Below the pieces are notes generated by a model. The model did not search any database and was not told where the DNA came from. It worked only from the letters and a program-made list of their open reading frames with translations. The position numbers and the translations under genes are program-made. A stretch of DNA of 49,222 nucleotides. Origin: Daejeonella sp. (lineage in GTDB: Bacteria > Bacteroidota > Bacteroidia > Sphingobacteriales > Sphingobacteriaceae). How positions within the stretch are numbered: the stretch's first letter is position 1; the number at the start of each line of letters is the position of its first letter. Of this stretch, positions 20,615 through 49,222 are shown one piece after another. The stretch is taken from the NCBI RefSeq assembly GCF_030684675.1, contig NZ_JAUXXZ010000074.1:1-49222 (forward strand), read 5' to 3'.

Positions 20615-20793
20615 TTAGTTGTTAGTTGTTAGGACTGTTTTGGTTCATGAAAATCAATTAGTCATGATCAGCGCAATTCCCAATTCTCAACTGTCAATTG
20701 TCAACTATCAATTCAATATCTAAGTTCCCTCCTGCGTTAGATGACATCCTTGCTTTGACCCATTCTCAATTCTCAACTCTCAATTCTCAACTA
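20615..20793. repeat. Three heptanucleotide repeat tracts between the sensor kinase gene and gltX
   Basis: Three separate period-7 tracts: 20615-20635 (TTAGTTG x3), 20673-20714 (six units of TCAAYTS type) and 20759-20793 (TCAATTC/TCAACTC alternating, four to five units). Between them lies a fragment of the dispersed GATGACATCCT-type repeat (about 20735-20750) also seen near 25580 and 38870. The third tract ends 5 bp before the gltX -7 promoter box. Confidence 0.8.
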
Positions 20794-20810: not shown

Positions 20811-22340
20811 ATGCCTAATATGACTAAGAAAGTAAGAGTACGATTTGCACCCAGCCCTACAGGAGGTTTACATCTTGGGGGAGTAAGAACTGTATTATTT
20901 AATTATCTTTTTGCCCGCAAACATGGCGGGGATTTTATACTCAGAATAGAAGATACCGATCAAAGCCGTTATGTTGAGGGGGCAGAACAATACATACTTG
21001 ATTGTCTCGCCTGGTGCGGATTAAATCCTGATGAAGGACCTCAAAATGGTGGCCCCTATGCTCCATACCGTCAGAGCGAGCGCAAAGACAATTACCGGAA
21101 ATACGCCGAGCAGCTTGTCAGGGATAATCATGCTTATTATGCGTTCGACACCCCGGCAGAACTGGATGAGCAGCGACAAATATTTCCAAACTTTCGTTAC
21201 GGCCATGAAAACCGTGATGTTTTAAAAAATTCCCTGAACCTGTCGCAGGAAGAAACGCAGACACTTTTGGATCAGGGAGTACCGCATGTTATCCGCATTA
21301 AAGTTCCTGCAGATGATACGGTTCATTTCTACGATATGATTCGCGGGGATGTCAGCTTTGACACCAATCTTGTTGATGATAAAGTACTGTTAAAAGCTGA
21401 TGGCATGCCAACCTATCACCTCGCTGTGGTTGTGGATGATTATCTGATGAAAATAAGCCATGCCTTCCGCGGAGAAGAATGGCTCCCTTCAGCGCCGGTT
21501 CATATCCTGCTCTGGGAATATCTTGGATGGAAAGCCGACATGCCTCATTGGGTACATCTTCCACTGATCCTCAAACCTGATGGCAATGGTAAATTAAGCA
21601 AGCGTGATGGCGACCGGCTTGGTTTCCCTGTCTATGCAATGAACTGGAAGGACCCGAAAAGCGAAGAAATTATCCGGGGATTCCGTGAGATGGGATACCT
21701 GCCCGAAGCTTTTGTCAATATGCTGGCCCTTTTAGGCTGGAATGATGGGACCGAACAGGAGATCTTCAGTATGGAAGAATTAATTGAGAAGTTCAGTATC
21801 GAACGGGTGAGCAAAGCAGGCGCAAAATTTGATTTTGAGAAAGCGAAGTGGTTTAATCATGAGTATATAAAGAAGTATCAGGTATCACGTATCAGGTATC
21901 AGGTACTTGAAATACTGAAAGCTAAAGGCGTCCAAATTCAGGATAATGAGTATTTCGATAAAGTTCTTGAGACTGTCAAAGAGCGCATGACCTTTCTTCA
22001 GGATTTCTGGGATCAGGCTTCATTCTTCTTTGAGCAGCCTGCATTTTATGACCTGAATGCTGTAAAACCTAAATGGAGCGAGGCCAAAACAGAATATTTC
22101 AATGAGCTGATTAAAACCTGGGAAGGGACAAAAGCATGGGATGCTGTAAATCTGGAAACTATTTTTAAAACTTTGGCAGAAGAAAAAGGCATTAAACCGG
22201 GTGAGTTGATGTTACCATTCAGGGTTATGCTGGTTGGGGGCAAATTTGGTCCGGGAGTTTTTGATATTGCAGTGCTTCTTGGTAAAGAGAATACAATTCA
22301 GAGGATTCAAAAAGCGATTATTGCTTTTACGGAGGAGTAA
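20811..22340 (+). CDS. gltX: Glutamate--tRNA ligase
   Basis: A 509-residue class I aminoacyl-tRNA synthetase that charges tRNA-Glu with glutamate in the cytoplasm. It has the HIGH-type motif in RFAPSPTGGLHLGG (residues 11-24), RIEDTDQSR, the GEEWLPSAP segment and the KMSKS-type motif KLSKRDGD (from about residue 261), then the anticodon-binding helical domain. Length is normal. Met4 (20820, MTKKVRVRFAPSP) is as good a start as Met1, given the promoter box 4 bp upstream. Oddity: residues of about 356-366 (YQVSRIRYQVL) are encoded by a tandem heptamer tract of GGTATCA type (21875-21906), apparently an intergenic-style minisatellite within the helical domain, reading through in frame. Confidence 0.96.
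   Translation: MPNMTKKVRVRFAPSPTGGLHLGGVRTVLFNYLFARKHGGDFILRIEDTDQSRYVEGAEQYILDCLAWCGLNPDEGPQNGGPYAPYRQSERKDNYRKYAEQLVRDNHAYYAFDTPAELDEQRQIFPNFRYGHENRDVLKNSLNLSQEETQTLLDQGVPHVIRIKVPADDTVHFYDMIRGDVSFDTNLVDDKVLLKADGMPTYHLAVVVDDYLMKISHAFRGEEWLPSAPVHILLWEYLGWKADMPHWVHLPLILKPDGNGKLSKRDGDRLGFPVYAMNWKDPKSEEIIRGFREMGYLPEAFVNMLALLGWNDGTEQEIFSMEELIEKFSIERVSKAGAKFDFEKAKWFNHEYIKKYQVSRIRYQVLEILKAKGVQIQDNEYFDKVLETVKERMTFLQDFWDQASFFFEQPAFYDLNAVKPKWSEAKTEYFNELIKTWEGTKAWDAVNLETIFKTLAEEKGIKPGELMLPFRVMLVGGKFGPGVFDIAVLLGKENTIQRIQKAIIAFTEE
21875..21906 (+). repeat. Heptamer tract inside the gltX coding region
   Basis: GTATCA, GGTATCA, CGTATCA, GGTATCA, then GGTAC: period 7, four to five units. Three heptamers make seven codons, so the frame is kept with no stop. 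The tract resembles the intergenic heptamers elsewhere in the window. Confidence 0.8.
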
Positions 22341-22350
22341 AAGGGATAAA

Positions 22351-22688
22351 GACTTACGAAATTACCTGGGCGAAAAGAAAGTCGATTTCGTCAGTCACAT
22401 TCCGGGATAGCGACTGACGAATTTAAATGCATGACGCCTAAGTAAATTCGTAAGTCTGAATTTCCCGACTTACGAAATCACCTGGGCGAAAAGAAAGTCG
22501 ATTTCGTCAGTCACATTCCGGGATAGCGACTGACGAATTTAAATGCATGACGCCTAAGTAAATTCGTAAGTCTGAATTTCCCGACTTGCGAAATCACCTG
22601 GGCGAAAAGAAAGTCGATTTCGTCAGTCGCGTTTATAGATGTGACTGACGAATTTAACCAGTTTAACGCCTAAGCAAATTCGTAAGTC
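22351..22688. repeat. Three-copy array of a 106-bp palindromic element
   Basis: Units at 22351-22456, 22467-22572 and 22583-22688, each 106 bp, separated by the identical 10-nt linker TGAATTTCCC (period 116). Each unit starts with GACTTACGAA (or GACTTGCGAA) and ends with TTCGTAAGTC. Inside are TTCGTCAGTC and GACTGACGAA around a loop of about 15 nt. Secondary arms ACCTGGGCG and CGCCTAAGT extend the outer stem. The array begins 10 bp after the gltX stop. Related copies are at 34247-35052 and 47944-48051. The rest of the spacer to 22812 (about 22690-22812) shows nothing I can name and must hold the amidohydrolase promoter. Confidence 0.93.
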
Positions 22689-22812
22689 TTACTGGATTTT
22701 CAGCATAAATCACTACAATCACACTAATCATAAAAATCACAGTTCAGACAAAATACTATCCCATTTTTCCTAAACGGTTAATTCATATATTTAATTAACC
22801 AAAGCCTCAATA

Positions 22813-25417: not shown

Positions 25418-25862
25418 TAATTCATCGTCGACGAAGTTCTCTCTCCGCGAAGGGCGGATCAGGAATCCAATTGAAATTAATTCTGAAGCGCATTGCAACC
25501 TGTCATCCTGAACGAAGTGAAGGAACTTCGGGCTCAAGAAACAAACTCTAATCTAAAATCACTAAGTTCCCTCCTGCGGGATGACATCCTGCTTTTAATT
25601 CTCAACTGTAACCCCGATAGCTATTGGGTCTCAACTCCCTTCCTGCACAATCCCTGGGCACCTTGCTTATCCCCCTCTAGAGGGGGCAGGGGGAGGTATT
25701 AGAAAAATCCTCCCCCTCCATTGCTCAGGCCTTACCCGCCCCCCTCTCCCAAGGAGTTCTATGGACCAAAGGGGGACAATAATCCTGATTCATTGCATAA
25801 TATTCTTCCAAAACCACAACCCGATAGCTATCGGATCCCTATTCCCCATTGTCAACTGTCAA
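25418..25862. other. 445-bp convergent spacer packed with dispersed repeats
   Basis: No gene is supported. Contents in order: a GTCATCCTGAACGAAGTGAA dispersed repeat (about 25500); a GGGATGACATCCT relative (about 25579); short CTCAACT heptamers (about 25600); CCGATAGCTATTGG (25614-25627) and a perfect palindrome CCGATAGCTATCGG (25821-25834); CCCCCTCTAGAGGGGG (25671-25686) in a C/G-rich block to about 25770; and a heptamer tract 25845-25865. The tract contains the stop codon of the convergent permease gene. No clean terminator hairpin with a T-run was seen. Confidence 0.6.
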
Positions 25863-34246: not shown

Positions 34247-34505
34247 GACTTACGAAATCACCTGACAGAGCGGAAAGTAGATTTCGTCAGTCGCATTAAG
34301 ATATGGTGACTGACGAATTTAAATGCATAACGCCTAAGTAAATTCGTAAGTCTGAACTACCCGACTTGCAAAATCACCTGACAGAGCGGAAAGTCGATTT
34401 CGTCAGTCACATCCAGCGTGGCGACTGACGAATTTAAATATATGACGCCCAGGTAAATTCGTAAGTCAACGATCCTACTTACAAAATCACCTGAGCGGGC
34501 GGAAA
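34247..34505. repeat. 106-bp palindromic elements, two full copies and one 5' fragment
   Basis: Unit A 34247-34352 (106 bp), linker TGAACTACCC, unit B 34363-34467 (105 bp), then a 7-nt gap and a 5' fragment (about 34475-34505) that keeps only the outer arm and the ACCTGAGCG arm. Unit B has the 3' arm CGCCCAGGT, which exactly complements ACCTGGGCG in the gltX array. The 34178-35114 spacer is otherwise non-coding, with nothing recognisable in 34506-34892. Confidence 0.9.
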
Positions 34506-34892
34506 TTTTATCTAATTTCAAATTTCATTGGTTCCTGTCTGTTATCCCAAAAAAAGAGCATCTCGATCTTATCTGGTTTAAATCATAAAAAACAGATGAT
34601 ATTTGATCTCAAATTGCCTCAAAAGTTTTAACGCCGGTTTCGGAAATAATAACCGGCAAACTCATTTGCTAATAGCTATCTTATCCTTAAACTCTTCTAA
34701 TGTTATACTTAAGTTTCCATAATACAAATTCGTTAATATCTTTCTAATGAAGAGATTGCCTCAGACTATCTTTTAATATTACCTGGCAGCTTTTTTTAAG
34801 TTCTTTACTTATACGCTCATATTAACTCAAATTTACAAATTATCATGCAATAATTATTCTATCCATTTAGCGCGGCGACCAGATAGTTATCG

Positions 34893-35052
34893 GGTGACGG
34901 ATTTAAATGTATAGCGCCTAAGTAAATTCGTAAGTCTGAACTACCCGACTTGCGAAATCACCTGACAGAGCGGAAAGTCGATTTCGTCAGTCACTTTTAG
35001 ATATGGTGACTGACGAATTTAAATGTATAACGCCTAAGTAAATTCGTAAGTC
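34893..35052. repeat. 106-bp palindromic elements, one 3' fragment and one full copy
   Basis: A 3' fragment (about 34893-34936) with GACGGATTTAAATG...TTCGTAAGTC, linker TGAACTACCC (same as between units A and B), then a full unit at 34947-35052. The full unit has 12-bp inner arms (TTCGTCAGTCAC and GTGACTGACGAA). It ends 62 bp before the SGNH esterase start. Confidence 0.9.
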
Positions 35053-38290: not shown

Positions 38291-38931
38291 TTCTATTTTT
38301 AAAATTTCGCACAAAAGACTCCTGAGAATCTTTTCGATGATTCTTGCTACAAAACAGGAAATCTGATTGCTGGTATTGGTTTAAATGTATTTGTTAATAA
38401 GACGGCAGGGAAAAGAATAGGTTACAGTAAAAATGTGAAAAAGGGATTTTCGCATATCGGGGGGCTTTGGCTTATTGGGTTGGCAAAGGGAATATATTCT
38501 TATAATTACTGATAATCTTACACACCACCCCCTTTAATTCCCCCGCCGGCGGGGGACACTACCGCTAATGCACAGCGCTAGAGGATAATCTGTTTATAGT
38601 TTATTTTAGATGCCACGCCGTCCTCCACAGGAGGGGCTGTGATTTGCCCGGTGAGGTGGCATGGGGAGGTGGCGGGTCAAGCCCGCCATGACAACGCATT
38701 GGTGGTTTAATAAGGAATACGGCGCGGAGGCCGGAATCTGACTCAATAAATACTGATTTGTCATCCTGGCGGATGCAAGGACCTCAATTATAAAATTGAT
38801 TGTCCCCTTTCTAAGCTCAATAATCTATTTTCAGTTCTTATTACTAAGTTCCTTCTCCTACTGCAGGCTGGGATAACATCCTACTCCAAATGAAATAAAA
38901 AGATATAGATTTTGTTTACTTTTCGCAATTC
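38291..38931. other. 641-bp spacer with dispersed repeats
   Basis: No gene is supported. It holds the GC-rich palindromic repeat copy 2 (38525-38556, palindrome 38540-38555), further G/C-rich inverted stretches to about 38690 (GGCGGG...CCCGCC near 38671-38687), two GTCATCCTG/ATAACATCCT-type dispersed repeats (about 38760 and 38870) and a heptamer tract starting at 38925. The promoter of the outer-membrane protein gene should lie near 38300-38400. Confidence 0.55.
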
Positions 38932-38959
38932 TCAACTCTCCATTCTCAACTCTCCACTA
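38925..38959. repeat. Heptamer tract overlapping the 3' end of a kinase gene
   Basis: GCAATTC, TCAACTC, TCCATTC, TCAACTC, TCCACTA: five units in phase. The minus-strand kinase stop codon (38932-38934) and its last residues (SGELRMES) are encoded within the tract. Confidence 0.85.
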
Positions 38960-47926: not shown

Positions 47927-48051
47927 GACTTACGAAATCACTCGACTTGCGAAATCACCTTGGCGAGCGGAAAGTCGATTTCGTCAGTCGCATGTAAACT
48001 ATGGAGACTGACGAATTTATCTTGCTTGACGCCTATGTAAATTCGTAAGTC
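47927..48051. repeat. 106-bp-type palindromic element, single full copy with a 5' stub
   Basis: Full copy 47944-48051 (108 bp) with outer arms GACTTGCGAA and TTCGTAAGTC, inner arms TTCGTCAGTC and GACTGACGAA, and ACCTTGGCG/CGCCTATGT secondary arms. It is preceded directly by a 17-nt stub GACTTACGAAATCACTC (47927-47943), the start of another copy. It occupies the gap between the GDPD stop (48058) and the yihY start (47907). Confidence 0.92.
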
Positions 48052-49086: not shown

Positions 49087-49222
49087 TGAGTATTGAGTAT
49101 TGAGTATTGAGTATTGAGTATTGAGTATTGAGTATTGAGTATTGAGTATTGAGTATTGAGTATTGAGTATTGAGTATTGAGTATTGAGTATTGAGTATTG
49201 AGTATTGAGTATTGAGTATTGA
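49087..49222. repeat. Perfect heptanucleotide array, about 19 copies, at window edge
   Basis: TGAGTAT repeated without interruption for 136 bp to the end of the window, so the true length is unknown. It begins 3 bp upstream of the GDPD start codon (minus strand, where it reads ATACTCA). It is by far the most regular of the window's heptamer tracts. Confidence 0.97.

Follow-up and report, generated by a model that had tools for sequence, protein, structure and literature searches.

A 106-bp palindromic repeat of Daejeonella sp. as a probable REPIN with a cognate Y1 transposase

The available evidence is that the 106-bp palindromic unit arrayed in tandem within a 49,222-nucleotide stretch of the Daejeonella sp. 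genome (contig NZ_JAUXXZ010000074.1, positions 1 to 49,222, hereafter the window) is very probably a REPIN, i.e. a head-to-head pair of repetitive extragenic palindromic (REP) sequences. The element is non-autonomous. A cognate REP-associated tyrosine transposase (RAYT), encoded at C63:202-762 of the same genome, most likely copies or mobilises it in the form of single-stranded DNA; the arrays, which have a 116-bp period, most likely derive from local duplication. This proposal, which we hold with considerable confidence, draws on the sequence, copy number and intergenic placement of the unit, its predicted fold, the presence in two genomes of a RAYT with intact catalytic motifs inside a repeat array, and a common core sequence around related RAYTs.

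Anatomy and distribution of the repeat

From left to right a unit comprises P, Q', a loop, Q and P', the sequence of P being GACTTACGAA (often GACTTGCGAA) and that of Q being GACTGACGAA. In the predicted fold the whole unit forms one long hairpin, with P paired to P' and Q to Q'; the palindromy named in the original prediction is borne out in that the fold of unit 1 beats 200 of 200 dinucleotide shuffles (z -6.05 as RNA, -4.80 as DNA). Taken alone, the left half (P to Q') and the right half (Q to P') are also each predicted to form an imperfect hairpin with a loop of ~20 nt, and alignment reveals a mispair at the fifth pair of this half hairpin in 28/29 left and 26/29 right halves. Of the 59 places in the host census, 31 hold a full P-Q'-Q-P' unit; a left half stands alone at 16, a right half alone at 10, and two hold other fragments. 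Because the halves fold and occur alone, we therefore take the ~46-nt half to be a REP and the 106-bp unit to be a REPIN. The linkers between units have a consensus of roughly TKAAnnnYCC, the first four bases 3' of P' being TGAA or TTAA in 24/37 cases. Arrays on host contigs C84, C15 and C63 have the linker TTAACGATCC in common.

The census relates to the host assembly (G000; 4.25 Mb, 84 contigs), in which BLAST located the unit at 61 places, some being both strands of one palindrome, and nhmmer left 59 non-overlapping places at 36 loci; it covers the 33 stretches fetched from the BLAST places (164,569 bases) and possibly counts one unit twice, as identical units stand at the end of C15 and the start of C63. 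These identical ends make it probable that C63 and C15 are adjacent, in which case the two would together form one large cluster containing the RAYT. The dispersal over 36 loci, 24 of which hold a single copy or fragment, rules out a CRISPR or a minisatellite, as had been anticipated, and the copies extend well beyond the window, i.e. to the 59 host places and, across the genus, to ten genomes in all.

Perfect terminal inverted repeats, dispersal and a non-coding nature are also what a miniature inverted-repeat transposable element (MITE) would display, were the unit a DDE-type insertion sequence reduced to its terminal inverted repeats by loss of the middle. By contrast, the numerous solo halves would be unexpected for a two-ended MITE, and the target-site duplication, testable at the nine of the 36 loci with complete outer ends, is 0 nt at eight and 2 nt at the ninth, which fits the Y1 REP class. 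The transposase inside the arrays of two genomes is, moreover, of the Y1 HUH type, no search having been aimed at DDE genes bounded by these ends. We thus consider a MITE origin very improbable; the description of the element as MITE-like holds in so far as it is non-autonomous, but not in the sense of an ordinary DDE-type MITE.

For all 59 places, overlap with called genes is at most 30 bp (gene calls for the host loci being simple open reading frames of at least 90 codons), whereas 86% of the window is coding. Eighteen of the 36 loci lie between co-directional genes, eight between convergent and five between divergent genes, and five at a contig edge. The placement downstream of a stop codon in 30/36 loci (distance -24 to 716 bp), together with the strong predicted fold, could be read as that of a cis-acting RNA element of 3' ends, e.g. 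a terminator or mRNA stabiliser, copied for that role. The divergent loci argue otherwise, as do two scanned stretches without a terminator-like site and the window's lack of any Rfam match at gathering score, by which a known RNA family was also set aside. Likewise, pair counts show no covariation above shuffles for either fold (long hairpin or two half hairpins); the arms therefore look conserved as a recognition sequence rather than as RNA structure, and selection on RNA structure was rejected. An origin as an RNA element is accordingly given little credence, although the repeat may have a secondary effect on transcripts.

The RAYT and its relatives

The search for a REP-associated Y1 HUH gene in the same genome, suggested with the original prediction, led to C63:202-762, a gene lying inside a repeat array; with the dispersed, intergenic copies, it upholds the assignment to the REP type (the prediction's REP/BIME, the latter for bacterial interspersed mosaic element). 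The encoded protein has 177 residues and, in an alignment of 36 proteins, retains both the H-u-H motif (as NHFH) and the Y---NP motif (within YIH[QN]NP), together with an FQ motif. A Y1 HUH gene is embedded in a repeat array in a congener too (G007, contig C70); the reading frame is intact in both genomes, and in both the gene is flanked by its own REPs, i.e. has the arrangement of a REPtron. By analogy with TnpA_REP of Escherichia coli, we infer that the RAYT would act on single-stranded DNA, where it would bind REP halves and cut near the stem foot, the cut DNA then being joined at another place. The tandem arrays would most likely grow by local duplication of a unit with its linker, consistent with which full units are more similar within arrays than between them (0.856 versus 0.788; Mann-Whitney P 2e-4, the pairs not being independent).

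A DNA search across 100 genomes, with at most 8 candidates per genome, found the unit in ten, all among the 20 genomes of the genus and none among the 80 outside it. Covariance-model matches, counted on both strands with at most 150 candidates scored per genome, number 68 in the host, 42 in G007 and 2-15 in eight other congeners, with none in the remaining ten. The highest copy numbers are thus found in the genomes with the RAYT, congeners without a close RAYT having few copies. At the gltX locus, which holds the window's first array, there are three units in the host and one in G007, and no unit was seen in the ~700 nt downstream of gltX in G010, G018, G008, G004 and G011. At a second locus, on host contig C84 and upstream of a gene that we take by eye, from its first residues, to be gapA, three units are present in the host, against a single decayed unit in both G008 and G018, a remnant in G010 and none in G007.

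The gradation at the C84 locus, and the few copies kept by congeners without a close RAYT, would suit decayed, immobile REP remains in which tandem arrays are now altered by recombination alone. Against this stand the near-identity of neighbouring units (99-100%), the intact RAYT frame in two genomes and the peak in copy number where the RAYT is present; we regard such a relic state as unlikely, albeit deserving some weight.

Several observations weigh against a REPIN mobilised by this RAYT. The locus comparisons yielded no clean, exact-ended empty site: the C84 locus differs among congeners, yet lacks one, and the repeat-free gltX locus of G010 has other sequence. Eight of the ten unit-carrying genomes lack a close RAYT, several of these being fragmented assemblies; the link between RAYT and copy number concerns 2/20 genomes, and fragmented assemblies could have lost RAYTs. 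The protein scores 56.5 bits against a cut-off of 80 for the NCBIfam equivalog REP_Tyr_transpos, which is still its best-scoring model and whose cut-off is a curated threshold rather than a defining trait of the class; 4er8 is matched weakly by sequence (E 0.065). To the lack of covariation may be added that solo and paired halves show no significant difference in divergence (left, 0.879 versus 0.825, P 0.25; right, 0.893 versus 0.872, P 0.19), so that a derivation of singlets from decayed doublets gains no significant support. Finally, the outer ends lack GT[AG]G within 8 nt (0/40 left ends), its complement being present in 3/37 right ends. A related tetranucleotide, GT[ACT]G, does lie 2 nt before the inner stem on the top strand in 39/47 host left halves (GTAG 18, GTCG 17, GTTG 4), the remaining 8 having other words, with no GTAG, GTCG or GTTG among the tetranucleotides listed for the mirror strand. 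It may serve as a guide of the GTAG kind in degenerate form, its variable third base making a strict guide less likely.

The proposed pairing of repeat and RAYT can also be viewed across genera. A contig scan with the two RAYTs gave 540 relatives, of which the best 80 were kept; among these the nearest, at 57-69% identity, are at 14 loci in Pedobacter, Mucilaginibacter and unnamed Bacteroidetes bins, and form with the G000 and G007 proteins one supported branch (95/98). Of the 80 loci, 45 were examined for hairpins and 43 for the count of a core, ACTTnCGAA. At the 14 nearest loci 47 occurrences of this core are no further than 300 bp from the gene, against eight in the rest, and it stands on both gene sides at 11/14. 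The hairpins that it forms there are either short and symmetric, e.g. ACTTACGAAGTTTT-N-AAAACTTCGTAAGT, or have loops of 21-25 nt; the short symmetric form is absent from the host at up to two mismatches and present in 4/61 genomes of the family. Outside that branch, a Ferruginibacter locus (L136) has ACTTCCGAA, and other hairpins, e.g. AACGCTGACAGGGTTT and CTGGTCGGTG, lie near RAYTs elsewhere in Bacteroidota and near other RAYTs of the genus. Since related RAYTs share ACTTnCGAA hairpins and other RAYTs differ, hairpin type tends to follow RAYT type.

Some further Y1 genes were noted during this survey. Close to the members of a second Y1 family of the genus (L094, L096 and L097, i.e. host C83:12365 and congeners) lie CTGGTCGGTG...CACCGACCAG hairpins, and words resembling them adjoin REP loci such as C53:16498; these hairpins are probably another REP family. 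Other RAYTs of the genus (L089, L090, L092, with a variant in L088, and L087) lie near AACGCTGACAGGGTTT-n-AAACCCTGTCAGCGTT or AACCTTTCCAAAAGTTT hairpins, and no matching hairpin pair was found for the host Y1 genes on C51, C45, C7, C57 and C13. RAYT relatives in four Pedobacter species (L126, L127, L134, L135) have flanks that are similar by eye, which suggests the same chromosomal position and hence vertical inheritance. A phage origin was rejected, as no relative was among the 166 stretches that the RAYT alignment matched in a scan of viral contigs.

Copies in the window and a 16-bp palindrome

Tandem Repeats Finder reports a period of 116, 2.9 copies and 92% matches at 22351-22689, in agreement with the predicted three 106-bp units and identical 10-nt linkers after gltX; the gene upstream (20811-22340) encodes tRNA-synt_1c and anticodon-binding domains, which fits gltX. 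The further copies that had been pointed out are also real (Table 1), with one unit at 47944-48051, but those at 34247-35052 are not one continuous array: two full units and a fragment are separated by 385 bp of other sequence from the right half and full unit that follow, the groups at 34247-34508 and 34894-35052 sharing one intergenic gap. The unit at 47944-48051 lies between two minus-strand genes, 6 bp past the stop of a GDPD gene and 36 bp ahead of the called start codon of a BrkB-like gene (minus strand). That copies are always downstream of a gene thus holds for the three window sites, and is too strong genome-wide.

Table 1. Repeat units, linkers and associated features in the window
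Feature	Coordinates	Strand	Evidence
REPIN unit 1, P-Q'-loop-Q-P', ~46-nt REP halves head to head	22351..22456	+	sequence, Tandem Repeats Finder, nhmmer, fold
Linker TGAATTTCCC	22457..22466	+	sequence
REPIN unit 2, 99% identity with unit 1	22467..22572	+	sequence, alignment
Linker TGAATTTCCC	22573..22582	+	sequence
REPIN unit 3, 86-87% identity with units 1 and 2	22583..22688	+	alignment
REPIN unit	34247..34352	+	sequence, nhmmer
Linker TGAACTACCC	34353..34362	+	sequence
REPIN unit	34363..34467	+	sequence, nhmmer
Left REP half fragment, model 2-33	34477..34508	+	nhmmer
Degenerate 16-bp palindrome CCAGATAGTTATCGGG abutting foot of right REP half	34879..34894	.	sequence
Right REP half, model 64-107, without left half	34894..34936	+	nhmmer
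Linker TGAACTACCC	34937..34946	+	sequence
REPIN unit	34947..35052	+	sequence, nhmmer
17-nt left-arm fragment, immediately before unit 47944-48051	47927..47943	+	read from sequence
REPIN unit	47944..48051	+	sequence, nhmmer

A 16-bp palindrome, CCCGATAGCTATCGGG, is present in the window at 25613-25628, 25820-25835 and 34879-34894, and in the host at 67 places at up to two mismatches (control, 1); it occurs exactly in 61/198 Bacteroidia genomes (control, 0 in all). In 18/73 distinct contexts of the genus it abuts an exact REP arm, T[GT][AG]CGAA, with GA before it in 16 of these, and no other offset from -16 to 30 exceeds four contexts; the 73 contexts come mostly from loci fetched for REPs, so that 18/73 is not an unbiased rate. 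The count is by exact matching, a looser one (30/75) having taken in look-alikes such as TTGCTAA. Five exact cases and one near-exact case at an arm foot are known among the 67 host places. Relative to the intact arm GACTKACGAA the junction is a 15-nt gain at C|T, and at the C84 locus the versions of the palindrome align at inner arms in G000, G008 and G010. Outside the genus it is mostly flanked by T and A (19/26 hand-picked contexts), and the target rule there may therefore differ. No CCCGATAGCTATCGGG was found near any of 14 Y1 loci checked, by which a RAYT flanked by the palindrome was rejected.

It may be that the arm foot GAC^TKACGAA is the in vivo cut and join point of the RAYT, and that the class-wide CCCGATAGCTATCGGG is a minimal mobile hairpin joined into REPs at that C|T, a proposal that we consider distinctly doubtful. 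Were it true, the cut site would be set by the arm sequence with at most a degenerate GT[ACT]G, i.e. with no strict GTAG guide; the palindrome would be a footprint recording past strand-transfer events and, having a single exact point of insertion in REPs, would allow the choice of REP targets to be read directly from genomes. Full-text literature searches with CCGATAGCTATCGG or CGATAGCTATCG found no description of it, the one paper listed for CGATAGCTATCG being an unrelated study of glioma.

Other short repeats in the window include a 7-bp tandem repeat, TGAGTAT, at 49087-49222 (19.4 copies, 100% matches), which reaches the window end, this being the contig end, and those at 20681-20792, 21875-21905 and 38928-38956 (such as ATTCTCA and GTATCAG). 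Low-complexity words resembling the latter adjoin many REP loci.

Comparison with known systems

Full-text literature searches did not find CTTACGAAGTTTT, and those for 'repetitive extragenic palindromic' with Pedobacter gave nothing beyond a taxonomy review. The comparisons that follow draw on parts of the cited reports. The REPINs of Pseudomonas fluorescens SBW25 (PMC3116915, 2011) are two inverted REPs with a spacer, able to adopt a long hairpin or clover, and are linked to a RAYT. The inverted REP pair, the tandem clusters that include flanking sequence and the RAYT link are common to both systems. By contrast, the loops of the present halves measure ~20 nt, GTAG is missing from the outer ends, the RAYT is of another group, and singlets, which in SBW25 are more diverged than doublets, are here not significantly so.

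The Escherichia coli TnpA_REP cuts single-stranded REP DNA at C|T beside the stem, the GTAG at the foot being crucial (PMC8266576, 2021). The protein fold (4er8) and a conserved stem mispairing are shared, and a C|T likewise lies in the present foot, GACT; however, the mispair here is single rather than an AA-GC bulge, and the only counterpart of the GTAG is the degenerate GT[ACT]G placed 2 nt off the inner stem. As in the GTAG and CGTC superfamilies (Di Nocera et al. 2013, PMC3733652), of which the GTAG REPs have RAYTs and the CGTC families are without a transposase, the repeats are intergenic, often dimeric and mostly downstream of genes, but the ends of the unit lack an unpaired tag of either the GTAG or the CGTC type. 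CGTC does occur in the present unit, inside arms and loops rather than at its ends; the CGTC REPs have an unpaired end tag, an 8-9 bp stem and a 4-5 nt loop, in contrast to the ~20-nt loops and associated RAYT observed here. Insertion sequences, too, are reported to have hot spots in REPs (Tobes and Pareja 2006, PMC1525189); CCCGATAGCTATCGGG would be a similar case of other mobile DNA in REPs, although that report concerns full insertion sequences and the present case a 16-bp palindrome by itself, at a single exact point.

A further likeness is to the REPtrons of TnpA_Y1 subclass 2.6 (Quentin et al. 2018, PMC6006769), described from Bacteroidetes with a median of 179 residues and the motifs YIH[QN]NP, NH[LIV]H and WQ. 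Occurrence in Bacteroidota, protein length, YIH[QN]NP and atypical flanking structures copied elsewhere in the genome are common to both, and the present system fits this subclass apart from two motifs, NHFH replacing NH[LIV]H and FQ replacing WQ. The portions of that report considered here give no account of the anatomy, doublets or arrays of the subclass 2.6 repeats. We judge what is new to be a REPIN without an end tag, with its own RAYT and with a visible relation to simpler hairpins of sister genera. The atypical repeats of Bacteroidota RAYTs thereby gain a defined anatomy, i.e. arms, mispair, doublet, linker, array and embedded transposase, and their link to the short hairpins near Pedobacter and Mucilaginibacter RAYTs would make the change between simple hairpin and REPIN traceable within one protein clade. 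The system also lends itself to testing how REPs are recognised when there is no strict GTAG guide.
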